Source: Nanobdellota archaeon | Lineage (GTDB): Archaea > Nanobdellota > Nanobdellia > Pacearchaeales > GW2011-AR1 | DNA: 54,466 nucleotides | Assembly (NCBI GenBank): GCA_018816335.1 | Contig: JAHIVP010000017.1 | Coordinates: 1-54,466 of the forward strand | Direction of reading: 5' to 3' | In this document: in pieces, positions 1 to 19,717 of the stretch | Position numbering within the stretch: the first letter of the stretch is position 1 | How the letters are laid out: every line of letters begins with the position of its first letter | Made by a program: the position numbers and the translations under genes | The notes under the pieces: model-generated | Databases searched by the model: none | What the model was told of the DNA's origin: nothing | The model's input: the letters and a program-made list of their open reading frames with translations, nothing else

Positions 1-239
1 CCACCCCTCCTCCCCACCTCCCCCTAACCACCCCTCCTCCCCACCTACCCCTAACCACCCATCCTCCCCACCTACCCCTAACCACCCATCCTCCCCACCT
101 ACCCCCAACCACCCATCCCCCCCACCTACCCCTAACCACCCCTCCTCCCCCCCTACCCCTAACCACCCCTCCGCCCCACCTACCCCTAACCACCCCTCCG
201 CCCCACCTACCCCTAACCACCCCTCCTCCCCGCCCCCAA
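1..239. repeat. 27-bp C-rich tandem minisatellite, about 8.9 copies, at the window edge
   Basis: Unit ccacccctcctccccacctacccctaa repeats at 1, 28, 55, 82, 109, 136, 163, 190 and 217 with few substitutions; minus strand is G-rich (TTAGGGGTAGGTGGGGAGGAGGGGTGG). Confidence 0.95.
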
Positions 240-10951: not shown

Positions 10952-11367
10952 ATTATCCCTTTAAATTAATACTATATAAAGTTTTGCTTTTAGAAAAATG
11001 GTCCCGAAGGTGATATCAACCTCGCTCGCCTTTTTTTAATTAACTCAATACTTCAAATATTTCCAATTAATAACATTATCAAATATTTTTGATTAATATA
11101 TTTTCTTAAAATTTTTCCTCAGCGCAAGCCAGGAAAAATTTAGGGCGGGGTGGCCTATAAATAAATCTCTAAAAAATGGCCCCGAAGGTGCTCCTTCCTT
11201 CACTCGTTAGTCAATTGTATCTCCTCGTGAAAAAACTCGTTGAACCTAGAACCTCCTGCGGGTTCTAGTTATTCCAGCATCCAGAACCTAGGTTCTCTTG
11301 CTTCGCAATTCACTCCTATGTTCAAATCCGAATCTAAATTCTATTTCGCTTTGCTCAATAGATTAAA

Positions 11368-11496
11368 TGGCCCCGAAGGGATTTGAACCCTCGACACCTA
11401 GCTTTCTCCTCAGTGGGTTTTAACCCGCTGTTTTGGGAACCTTTTTTAAAGGTTCAGTAAAAGGCTAGTGCTCTAACCAGGCTGAGCTACGGAGCC
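11368..11496 (-). tRNA. tRNA-Lys(UUU) with 54-nt intron after position 37 (intron about 11404-11457), no encoded CCA
   Basis: Minus strand GGCTCCG-TA-GCTC...GAGC-A-CTAGC-CTTTTA-[intron]-A-GCTAG-GTGTC-GAGGG-TTCAAAT-CCCTT-CGGGGCC-A folds as a cloverleaf; mature anticodon loop CUUUUAA. Confidence 0.9.
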
Positions 11497-11802
11497 ACGT
11501 TTGCAATCTCATGAAATTGTATACAAGACGCCCCGGCAGATTGCGTGCGTGGAGCGCCATCCGTTTGTTTTGGTCCGTAGCGAACCTTATCTATAAACTG
11601 GGTTCCAAAGGGTGTCCCTTTGATGAGCTACGGAGCCACGTTTGCAATCTCATGAAATTGTATACAAGACACCCCGGCAGATTGCGTGCGTGGAGCGCCA
11701 TCCGTTTGTTTTGGTCCGTAGCGAACCTTATCTATAAACTGGGTTCCAAAGGGTGTCCCTTTGATGAGCTACGGAGCCACGTTTGCAATCTCATGAAATC
11801 GT
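11483..11802. repeat. 141-bp tandem duplication (2 full copies plus a third partial) containing the tRNA-Lys 5' end and its promoter
   Basis: gagctacggagccacgtttgcaatctcatgaaat at 11484, 11625 and 11766; full copies 1 and 2 differ at one position (agacgcccc/agacacccc). Confidence 0.95.
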
Positions 11803-11936
11803 GGACAATTATGCCCCCGAACTTATACAACATTACTATCTGAACATTCTGCCCCGACATGTTGTATGAGTGAGTATAGATTGCGTGCTTGGTATATACA
11901 AAATTAATAGATAAAATTCCTTTTTAAAATTTCGTA

Positions 11937-15548: not shown

Positions 15549-15603
15549 ATTAATATCTATAATACTTCATTTATAAAAATAATTGTGATAGAAAACAACT
15601 ATT

Positions 15604-15790
15604 CACCACGCCCATTCCCCACCTCAACCAATAAATACTAACCCTTCTCCCAATTTCACTAAACTCACAACTTAATACTTAATTACTCACCACGCCCATT
15701 CCCCACCTCAACCAATAAATACTAACCCTTCTCCCAATTTCACTAAACTCACAACTTAATACTTAATTACTCCCCACACCCATTAGGACT
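15604..15790. repeat. 84-bp direct tandem duplication (2 copies plus partial third reaching into the nrdJ 3' end)
   Basis: caccacgcccattccccacctcaaccaataaatactaacccttctcccaatttcactaaactcacaacttaatacttaattact at 15604 and 15688; similar start (ccccacacccatta) at 15772. Confidence 0.95.
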
Positions 15791-18700
15791 AACCCAATCA
15801 CACTCAGGACAAATTTCTTTACAACTCCCCTTCTTAATTAATCTAACCCCACAAACAGCACAAAATCCTCCCTTTTCTTCCCGAGAGTTTGCAGTCTCAT
15901 GATATTTTGAACTAGCTGCCCCGGCAGACTGCGGGCTCGAGGCCCCCAAATTTTTCTTATCCTTATTAACTTCTCCAACTTCAGGAGGTTCAAAAGCATT
16001 CGCAACAACAGAAGGTTGTCTATACAAATCAGAATCAATAAAAGTCTTTTCTAAATAATTTCCAATATAATCTATAATAGACAAAGCAGTTTTAATTTCA
16101 GGATGTCCTTCTAAAACAATTCCCAAAGGATCAAATCTCTGTCTTTTAAATTGCATAATAATTTCTCTCAAAGGAACACCATATTGCAAAGATCTCGACG
16201 CTAAAACTCCAACAGTATCCATCAACCCTCCAATTGTCGAACCTTCTTTAGACATATTAATAAAAAACTCTCCAACACCTCCATCATCATATAATCCAAC
16301 AGTCAAATAACCTTCATGCCCTCCAATATTAAATTTATGAATAACAGCTTTTCTTTCAAGTGGCATCTTTTTTCTAACAGGACCTCCCATCACACTTTTA
16401 GTTACTAGCTTTTGTTTTCCAACAGTTAAAGGTTGCCTTCTCTTACTCCCATCTCTATACATAGCAACAGCTTTCAATCCCATTTTCCAAGCTTCAACAT
16501 ATAAATCAAAAACCTCTTGTTCAGTTACTTGATTAGGTAAATTAACAGTTTTAGAAATAGCTCCAGATAAAAAAGGTTGAACAGCAGCCATCATTTTCAA
16601 ATGCCCATGCGGAATAATAACTCTTTCACCACACGAAATCGCACAATCAAAAATCCCTAAATGCTCTTCTTTAACAATTCCACAACCTTCAACACAACTA
16701 TTTTCCAACACATAATCTGTAATATCTTTTATTTCCTTTTCATCATAACCTAATTTCTTCAAAGCATGTTTAACAGTCTGATTAACAATTTTCAAAGTCC
16801 CACCTTCAGCTAACAACTTTGTTTTAACCAATCCAATATCTGGCTCAATACCTAAAGTATCGCAATCCATCATAAAACCAATTGTTCCAGTAGGAGCTAA
16901 AACAGTTGCTTGCGCATTTCTAAAACCAAACTTCTCTCCCCTCTCAACAACAGTTTCCCAAGTTTCAACAGCAGCATTATAAACATTAATAAAATTATAT
17001 GGCAATTTATCAATATCAATACCACTCAGTGCATCTCTATGTTTTTTAATTACATTCATCATAGGTTCTTTATTTTTCTCAAATTCTTCAAAAGTTCCAA
17101 TATTCTCAGCCATTTCTGTTGAAGTTTCATAAACCTTAGCAGTCATCAAAGCACTAATAACAGCAGCAACAGCCCTTCCTTCATCAGAATCATAAGGCAA
17201 ACCTAAATCCATTAACAAAGCACCTAAATTAGAAAAACCCATTCCCAAAGGCCTAAATCTATTAGAGTTCTCAGCAATTTTTGCAGTTGGATAAGAAGAA
17301 TTATCAATCTCCAAATCCTGAGCAATAGCAGTAATCCTAACAGCATTTCCAAACTTATCAACATCAAAATCATCTTTCTCCATAAATCTCAAAAGATTCA
17401 AAGAAGCTAAATTACAAGCAGAATCATTAACAAACATATATTCACTACAATTATGAACTGTAATCCCATTAGCAACAAAACTATGACTGATTGGTTCTGT
17501 TAAATCATAAACTTTTTCCTCACCTAAATATTTCAAAGAACTCACAGAATCAATTGGTTTATCTTCATAAAAAGAAACATTTGTATTCATTATTTTTAAT
17601 TTCTCGTTTTTATATGACTCTGGCATAAAACCAATTAATTTTTGAAACTTTATTCTCCCATTCCGTGAAACTCTTAATGAATGAATCTCTCTAACTTTAT
17701 ATTCTTTTAATCCTCCTTTTCCATCAGGTAATAAAGAAACTTCTTTTCCAGCCCTTCTATTTTTATAAATCTTTGATTTAATTCCAAACCCAGATAAAAG
17801 AATTTGAACATCTTTTAATAATCTCAAACTTGTAGAATCTAAAGAAATATATTGAGACTTCTCTCCATAATTTGCTACAGTTCCATCAGCAGTAAATAAT
17901 CCCTGCAAAACATATTTTTGTTCTCCTAAATTTAATCCAAATATACTTTCAGATAAACATTTTTCATGAGATTTTAATTTTAAATCAACATATTCTGAAA
18001 GTTTATTTATTACAGTATTGTTTGTTATAGAATACTTTCCAGAAGTATTTGTTATTTGAACAGTTGCAGGAGAATTTTTATGAGTCATTCTTTCATAATT
18101 CTCAGCAACATAATTAGCAAATTTATTCAAAATAGATGATTCATTTTCTTTATGCATTGTTAATTGGATTCCTCTTTGGTTATTTATTTTTCCTCCACAT
18201 CCATCTCCTAAATAAAATCCAATCATCTGATAAAATTCTTTATTCTCTATCTCACTAATCTCAGCAACTTCTGTTTTTGGAAGTAAAACAAAATCATCTT
18301 TAGTTAATTCACAAGCTAAAACAAAACCACGATTAATTGTGAAAACTTTATGATCTCCTGTTAATTTAATTTCATACCCAGATTTGGTTTCTAATTTATA
18401 CACCTGTTTTATTCCAGTTTCAAAAGAACCAACTATTTGAGATTCAACAATATTACCCATATTTGTTAAGATAGTTGTCTCATTGTCTAATAATTTATCT
18501 ATTCTAATCCATCTACCTTCTTTTGTTAAAACTTTTGTATCTCCAGTAACACAAGGATTAGACGCATTAATAGGAGCAGAATTCGGACACGTATGCCACT
18601 TATTTATTGTATCATGAAACTGCATACCAGGATCACCACAATCAAAAGTTCCTTTAGCAATTTTTTCCATTAACTCTCTAGCTTTATATCTCGGCATCTC

Positions 18701-19717
18701 ATCTTTCATTTCTTCACATTTAACAGGAATTGTTTTCCAATCTTCATCTTGAATTACAGCATTCATAAAACCATCAGTAGCTCTCACAGATAAATTAGCA
18801 TTTTGAAAAGCAACAGTATCAGTAGCTTCAACACCATCTAAATCACAATTATCCATCAACAAATGAATCTTCTCTTCTTCTCTTGATTTAGCTTTTATAA
18901 ATTCTAAAATATCTGGATGGTCAACTCTTAAAGAATCCATTTTAGCAGCTCTTCTTGTTTTTCCTCCAGATTTAACAATTCCAGCAACTCTATCATAAAA
19001 CATTAAATAAGCTAAAGGCCCAGATGGCTTGCCACCTCCAGATAGTTTTTCTCTAGAAGACCTCAAAGTTGATAAATCACTTCCTGTCCCACTTCCATGC
19101 TTAAACAAAATAGCTTCATTAATAGCAAGTTGCATAATACTCTCCATAGTATCATCAACCCCTTGAATAAAACACGCAGAAGTCTGAGGATATTTATATT
19201 CTCCTCCAATTGGCAAATCAATCACACTACCATCATGAATAATAAACCCATCTTTTTTTTCATTTTTACCTTCAGTAATTGTATCAACACCAACATTAAA
19301 CCATGTAGGAGAATTAAATGCCATGTGCTGATTCAAAGTCAACCAATTAACTTCATTTTTAAATTTCTCTGCATTTTCAACATCAAAATATCTATCTTTC
19401 AAACCCCAATTTGTAATTTTATTAGAAACTCTTTCAATTAATTGCTGAATAGATTTTTCTCTTTCCTCTTTCCCTATCTCTCCATAAAAATATCTCGAGA
19501 CAACAATTTGTGTAGCTAACTGACTCCAAAAACTAGGAACAGAAATATCTTTCTGAATAAACAAAACACCTCCTCTTTCATCAGAAATCTGTGCATCTCG
19601 TTTTTCCCATTCAACATTTTCAAATACACCTTTATGAGAAAAATAATTATTAATTTTTAATCCACTTCCAACAATCATTGAGGAAGTTAAAACAAGGCCT
19701 TCATCTTCTGGATTCAT
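15767..19717 (-). CDS. nrdJ: adenosylcobalamin-dependent (class II) ribonucleoside-diphosphate reductase, intein-containing
   Basis: [80 protein letters not shown], C-terminal zinc ribbon. Confidence 0.95.
   Translation of the reverse strand: [1316 protein letters not shown]
17450..18553 (-). other. intein (368 aa) with LAGLIDADG homing endonuclease domain in NrdJ
   Basis: Starts [18 protein letters not shown], ends [13 protein letters not shown] before extein Cys (NASNP/CSEYMF); DOD motifs [10 protein letters not shown] and [11 protein letters not shown]. Confidence 0.96.

Follow-up and report, generated by a model that had tools for sequence, protein, structure and literature searches.

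Organization of the tRNA-Lys(UUU) Locus

The window analysed here is the 54,466-nucleotide (nt) contig JAHIVP010000017.1 of a Nanobdellota archaeon, part of a 0.9-Mb draft genome (82% complete) whose RpoA1 has its nearest named relatives in Candidatus Pacearchaeota assemblies (67-68% identity). Within the window, a tandem array directly abuts the 5' side of an intron-containing tRNA-Lys(UUU) gene, and every unit of the array includes a copy of the 5' end of that tRNA. The gene lies on the minus strand at 11368..11496 (Rfam RF00005, 55.1 bits), and excision of a 54-nt intron (11404-11457, minus strand) leaves a 75-nt tRNA with the anticodon TTT. ARAGORN in default mode missed this gene and called no tRNA here; because this mode miscalls the isotypes of intron-containing genes, anticodons were read by eye instead.

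Tandem Repeats Finder (TRF) placed the repeat at 11483-11799, with a period of 141, 2.2 copies, 99% matches, and a score of 627. The two complete 141-bp units delimited by TRF and repeat comparison (11483..11623 and 11624..11764) form a direct repeat with a single difference, G at 11530 versus A at 11671, and are followed by a partial third copy of 44 nt (11765..11808, 93% identical), in which TTGTATACAA takes the form TTGTCCACGA. Every unit contains the first 14 nt of the tRNA (GGCTCCGTAGCTCA, minus strand) together with AAAGGGACACCCTTT and TTGTATACAA. A sequence-only reading of this DNA had described near-identical tandem units of this length, each carrying the tRNA-Lys 5' end and a hairpin, and both statements are borne out; its attribution of the near-identity to recent duplication or conversion is also judged right, given the one difference between units. 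It had further taken the open reading frame (ORF) of 110 aa at 11511..11843 (plus strand) for a by-product, and a protein-coding interpretation was indeed rejected, as the frame merely runs through the repeat and owes its length to 141 being 3 x 47.

That reading recognized the repeat itself but missed that each tRNA 5' copy is followed by its complement, which makes a tRNA-specific hairpin leader. The unit is termed here R-S, where R duplicates the 5' end of the tRNA it precedes (from nt 1 to about nt 14-22) and S is a short structured insert of 30-75 nt, built of a hairpin core and, on the 3' side, an arm that complements the same tRNA 5' end. Since S ends in the complement of R, R+S folds on itself; the intact tRNA 5' end (R2) comes after the unit, and units are sometimes arranged in tandem. 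In the window, R2 is GGCTCCGTAGCTCA at 11483..11496, and the first and second exact upstream copies, R1 and R0, are located at 11624..11637 and 11765..11778, all on the minus strand. On the tRNA strand the unit reads GGCTCCGTAGCTCA (R), then TCAAAGGGACACCCTTTGGAACCCAGTTTATAGATAAGGTTCGCTACGGACC (S). The R1+S stem pairs GG(c)TCCGTAGC with GCTACGGACC and encloses the hairpins AAAGGG-ACA-CCCTTT and GAACC..GGTTC, giving a three-way junction; the predicted fold of 11559-11637 has an energy of -30.1 kcal/mol (z -5.6). This structure, referred to as class I, spans 11572..11637 and matched a covariance model that includes the sequence itself at 92.5 bits, and the model locates its second copy, R0+S, at 11713..11778 (both minus strand). 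The addition of an inverted repeat, E2, would make the window unit 141 bp long. E2 occupies 11503..11544 in unit 1 (GCAATCT..GCCGGGGC..AGATTGC, containing TTGTATACAAT) and 11644..11685 in unit 2, and a related inverted repeat (ACTCATACAACAT..GTCGGGGC..ATGTTGTATAAGT) is found upstream of the array at 11821..11871, all on the minus strand.

In the Rfam comparison at E<=0.1, the tRNA alone was matched; the window repeat gave only chance-level matches to RF01079 (E 4.8), and its R-S unit corresponds to no curated model. On the opposite strand, GATGA/CTGATGA motifs seen by eye suggested a hammerhead ribozyme or a C/D-box guide; both were rejected, as the remaining motifs were lacking and Rfam gave no support.

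Related Units in the Same Genome and Position of the Candidate Promoter

A DNA search of the same genome found the window S also before tRNA-Phe(GAA), in 72-bp units with a shorter third copy, and before a second tRNA-Lys (CUU by inspection), in units of 70-73 bp, R being in each case the 5' end of the tRNA concerned. Before tRNA-Cys and tRNA-Leu, unrelated sequences have the same architecture, e.g., GCGCGGATGG-AGAGATTAAAAATCTCAG-TATCCTCGCG-agac|GCGCGGATGG, and a tRNA gene on another contig (C35) is preceded by a minimal hairpin containing GTAGCTCA. The identity between R1 and R2 often spans +1 to A21 and ends there. The window repeat is one case of a wider class. Structured leaders with no evident own-5'-end copy were also observed upstream of tRNA-Gly(UCC) and tRNA-Val(UAC) (stretches L033 and L039), with folds of -17.6 and -24.6 kcal/mol, respectively, for 70 nt.

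The sequence-only reading had interpreted the array as a tRNA promoter amplified in tandem, giving stacked promoters. This part of it did not hold. On a B recognition element (BRE)/TATA-like motif, AAACCTTTTA, built from other, leaderless tRNA promoters of the family, the TTGTATACAAT stretch of the unit scored -2 to -24, and a BRE/TATA-like motif was not found in each unit. Within some 160 nt upstream, the highest score (4.6) belongs to the putative TATA element AAATTTTAAA (11923..11932, minus strand), which lies upstream of the whole array; the median of leaderless tRNAs is 6.2. In addition, the shorter units of tRNA-Phe and the second tRNA-Lys lack the promoter-like part, and at both genes one TATA-like stretch is present, upstream of the first copy. 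Across units, the motif scored on average 5.3 before R1 and 2.5 before the real tRNA, and was higher before R1 in 23 of 37 cases, where in arrays the position "before R1" may belong to another unit.

Occurrence Across Genomes

Copies of a tRNA's own 5' end (14 nt, up to two mismatches) were sought around all 116 Rfam-detected tRNAs of four genomes. They were present upstream of about 13% of the tRNAs (about 15/116) and downstream of none, while the prefixes of other tRNAs, used as a control, occurred upstream at 1.1%, so the pattern is not due to chance. Duplication of the GTAGCTCA box at short distance was detected in 22 of 181 family genomes, with no matches for the reversed control; two of the 22 were coding-looking, and nearly all lay directly 5' of a tRNA. 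At the level of the class, 13 of 85 family genomes and 4 of 293 others contained the pattern, against 4 control matches; outside the Pacearchaeota family it drops to control level.

Further units were recovered with covariance models of two S classes, whose matches were then read in context. Verified by reading, about 35 of the 181 Pacearchaeota-family genomes, from 26 genera, carry at least one unit, before tRNAs for Lys, Ile, Phe, Thr, Met, Arg, Asn, Tyr, Gly, Cys, or Leu; these counts are minima, because the searches favoured tRNAs with GTAGCTCA. The E1 core was also sought as a short pattern in 92 relatives; outside the genome of the window the matches stayed at control level, and real homologues were found with the later covariance model. 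Tandem identical units were observed in genomes G398 and G055, and diverged tandem units in G440 and G469. The longest array seen, at around 88793-88946 of contig C6 in genome G176 (L126, L206), comprises at least three R-S-like units before a tRNA, one of them shortened.

Tailored Arms and Shared Cores

The arms of S are fitted to the tRNA they precede. Summed over 35 units, the R x S duplex energy was -511.5 for own pairs and -399.4 +- 13.8 for permuted ones (p<=5e-5), and in 34 of the 35 units R1+S folded better than all but 4.5% of S-shuffled versions. With the native S, mispairing between R1 and the 3' strand of the tRNA was predicted at 0.74, against 0.92 with shuffled S (p=0.002). The cores of S, in turn, fall into two or more homologous structural classes. 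Class I is a three-way junction (GTAGCTCAtGAGGGG..CCCCTTACAGTAACCCC..GGTTCGCTAC) found in seven genera and at several tRNAs, and class II is a long hairpin with a core such as GTTC-UAAN-GAAC. Covariation was observed in both, with 17 double-change cells in class I (6.6 +- 2.3 expected), including acceptor positions that differ between tRNAs, and 13 in class II (5.1 +- 2.1 expected). One core, AAGTTCTA(N)GAACAA, is common to Lys, Ile, Asn, and Thr. That homologous cores recur at different tRNAs speaks for movement of some kind.

Filled and Empty Sites in One Genus

Three genomes of genus g296 (G468, G469, and G470) allow orthologous tRNAs to be compared. At tRNA-Lys(UUU), the same promoter leads straight into the tRNA in G470 (empty) and into R1-S in G468 (filled). 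Among the three, tRNA-Asn is filled in G469 only; tRNA-Ile has two units in G468, one in G469, and none in G470; and the unit of tRNA-Met is complete in G470, present as an R1 remnant in G468, and absent from G469. At Thr(UGU) both G468 and G470 have a unit, and a D-loop difference between them (GCGATA/GTGATA) is repeated in R1 and, as the complement ATCGCT/ATCACT, in S. At tRNA-Gly of G469, R1 equals the 5' end of the G470 tRNA-Gly and the genome's own tRNA differs; R2 fits the 3' acceptor and R1 does not. In this one informative case, R2 is the working copy.

Proposed Origin of the Units and Competing Explanations

On a tentative and nearly balanced judgement, the R-S units would be a family of tRNA-targeted insertion-duplication elements located between promoter and tRNA; confidence in the mechanism is moderate. 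S would enter the transcribed 5' end of a tRNA gene, and snap-back (template-switch) copying at the target, as the anatomy suggests, would make the direct repeat R and the complementary arm together, so that the arms fit each tRNA while the core is common. Unequal exchange between R copies could then multiply the units. Transcription would start near the first copy, making the units transcribed, self-masking 5' leaders: each R1+S would fold first and mask the redundant 5' end, reducing its competition with R2 for the tRNA 3' half, and RNase P would probably cut the leader off. Masking and removal would together allow the insertion to be tolerated. RNase P RNA was found in 9 of the 12 genomes searched, so the leader could be removed. 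Its gene adjoins tRNA-Phe in the genome of the window (L008, 1842-2562) as well as in G468 (C2, 30956-31405) and G469 (C1, 35492-35950). A precedent for the copying step is the transcription-linked quasi-palindrome mutagenesis described in yeast (PMC3820800).

Several observations weigh against insertion-duplication. The units have no linked mobility enzyme, no insertion event has been watched, and snap-back copying is deduced from the anatomy. In the genome of the window, the S arms of Phe and Lys(CUU) fit their own R no better than the R of other tRNAs. Some units have an S that is 85-91% identical, with similarity in the 45 nt upstream no higher than random; constraint would account for this as well. 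The placement of the TATA-like motif before R1 is a tendency only (23/37). Equilibrium folding also often still pairs R1 with the acceptor 3' strand (mean 0.74), a state favoured by multiloop energies; because these energies reward extra branches, the thermodynamic choice between R1 and R2 is judged unreliable.

The main rival, which we consider doubtful, is a cis-acting leader switch, in which the 3' arm of S would have two possible partners: pairing with R1 would leave R2 free to form the tRNA, with cleavage by RNase P, and pairing with R2 would block the tRNA 5' end; the conserved core might sense something, or R1+S might be a folding chaperone that sets tRNA maturation, both being covered by the same judgement. 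Such a switch is consistent with the near-constant identity of R1 and R2 and the complementarity of S to both, with the coordinated change of tRNA, R1, and S in Thr(UGU), with the retention of the class I core across seven genera and several tRNAs, with an S more alike than its flanks, and with a unit that always lies between promoter and tRNA. It sits poorly with the patchy distribution, in which orthologous tRNAs of congeners have no unit, and with the R1 fossil at G469 tRNA-Gly that no longer matches R2. A related proposal, that pre-tRNA leaders combine an own-5'-end decoy and its complement into a two-state switch on tRNA folding and RNase P maturation, and spread by rebuilding their arms for each tRNA, seems unlikely. 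Also unlikely is neutral mutational debris, whereby replication-transcription conflicts at strongly transcribed tRNA 5' ends would generate template-switch duplications (R, complement, R) and quasi-palindrome correction would keep the arms matched, with nothing mobile or selected. A double template switch gives just this R/complement/R anatomy, yeast has quasi-palindrome mutation linked to transcription (PMC3820800), and the arms of inverted repeats are homogenised by template switching (PMC8604942); yet the pattern is restricted to one family, and the S cores, which do not derive from tRNA, share homology between tRNAs and between genera, so they were not made locally each time.

Three further explanations carry very little weight. 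That R1 is the true 5' exon and S+R2 an intron-like insertion at 21/22 that is spliced out would agree with an R1/R2 identity often ending at A21/G22, a TATA-like motif tending to lie upstream of R1, and equilibrium folds that often pair R1 with the acceptor; it is most improbable given that R2 is the intact tRNA 5' end, that G469 tRNA-Gly works only with R2, and that in predicted folds no bulge-helix-bulge can join R1 to nt 22, because the stretch complementary to R1 is part of S and does not adjoin the 3' junction. Degenerate tandem tRNA pseudogenes, brought to mind by a unit of G420 that seems to include an anticodon-arm-like stretch, are scarcely credible, as other S cores are unlike the downstream parts of their tRNAs and the arms are complementary to R. 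An artefact of short-read metagenome assembly is the least credible of all: these are draft metagenome assemblies, and in a related genome contigs break off at tRNA genes, but a fixed difference separates the window units and independent units occur at other tRNAs and in about 35 genomes.

Comparison with Known Systems

Rickettsia palindromic elements and repetitive extragenic palindromic (REP)-type repeats are small, structured, dispersed inserts tolerated in functional genes. R-S units resemble them in these respects (compare PMC3733652), but such elements carry their own constant stems, whereas the outer stem of R-S is rebuilt from each target tRNA, whose 5' end is duplicated. Accordingly, the constant sequence of R-S does not include the stem, the outer arms being tRNA-specific and only the core common, and dispersal to unrelated sites was not seen, as the pattern and model matches were tRNA leaders or tRNAs apart from two coding-looking ones. 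Integrative elements that target tRNAs and leave tRNA fragments (PMC9897764) likewise have partial tRNA copies flanking the insert and a whole tRNA. Their inserts are about 9-23 kb, whereas those of R-S measure only 30-127 nt, lie at the 5' end, are complementary to the tRNA, and hold no integrase gene or payload between the tRNA repeats. Quasi-palindrome and template-switch mutations (PMC3820800 and PMC8604942) also involve inverted copies and arm homogenisation and are promoted by transcription. Complementary arms tailored to local sequence are found in R-S units too, but these differ in a direct duplication of the tRNA 5' end, in their spread over many genera, and in cores that are not of local origin, being homologous between tRNAs and genomes.

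The split tRNA genes of Nanoarchaeum equitans (PMC3491384), another DPANN archaeon, similarly place a complementary sequence after a tRNA 5' portion; in R-S units a complete tRNA follows, there are no halves, no trans-splicing is needed, and RNase P RNA is present. A split or permuted tRNA was rejected for the window, where the tRNA at 11368-11496 is complete after intron removal. Archaeal bulge-helix-bulge introns also add structured RNA to tRNA transcripts, and a real intron is present here too, but R-S units lie 5' of the intact tRNA and lack a splice motif that would connect R1 with the body of the tRNA; an intron of this type was rejected on the predicted folds. T-box and other RNA leaders combine a structured 5' leader, alternative pairings, and relevance to tRNA. 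R-S differs in preceding the tRNA gene itself and copying its sequence; by sequence, alternative pairings could form in it too. No description of such leaders was found in the open-access literature searched. Few genes are as conserved or as heavily transcribed as those for tRNAs. The units would amount either to target-tailored insertion of a new kind or to a new layer of control over tRNAs in host-dependent archaea; the filled and empty sites together with the coordinated triple changes make these two readings testable.

Other Repeats in the Window and Genome

A stretch 80% similar to the E2 of the tRNA-Lys unit occurs in nrdJ (15887-15936). It is in frame, close to the C-terminal end, and its stem shows compensating changes (GCAATCT/AGATTGC versus GCAGTCT/AGACTGC). 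The gene, at 15767-19717 on the minus strand, reads like a B12-dependent ribonucleotide reductase and seems, from the translation only, to hold an intein-like insertion. Beside it lies a tandem repeat of 84 bp (15603-15784, 2.2 copies, 97%). A further GCCGGGGC hairpin is located 3' of a tRNA-Leu (stretch L055). A second, trailer-side tRNA-associated repeat of 89 bp (94-99% identical) was observed immediately 3' of four or more different tRNA genes in the same genome, at 11240-11328 of the window, 1396-1484 of L049, 1233-1321 and 1407-1495 of L051, and 1578-1664 of L041. Finally, the contig end (window 1-231) consists of 27-bp tandem repeats (8.6 copies, 94%).
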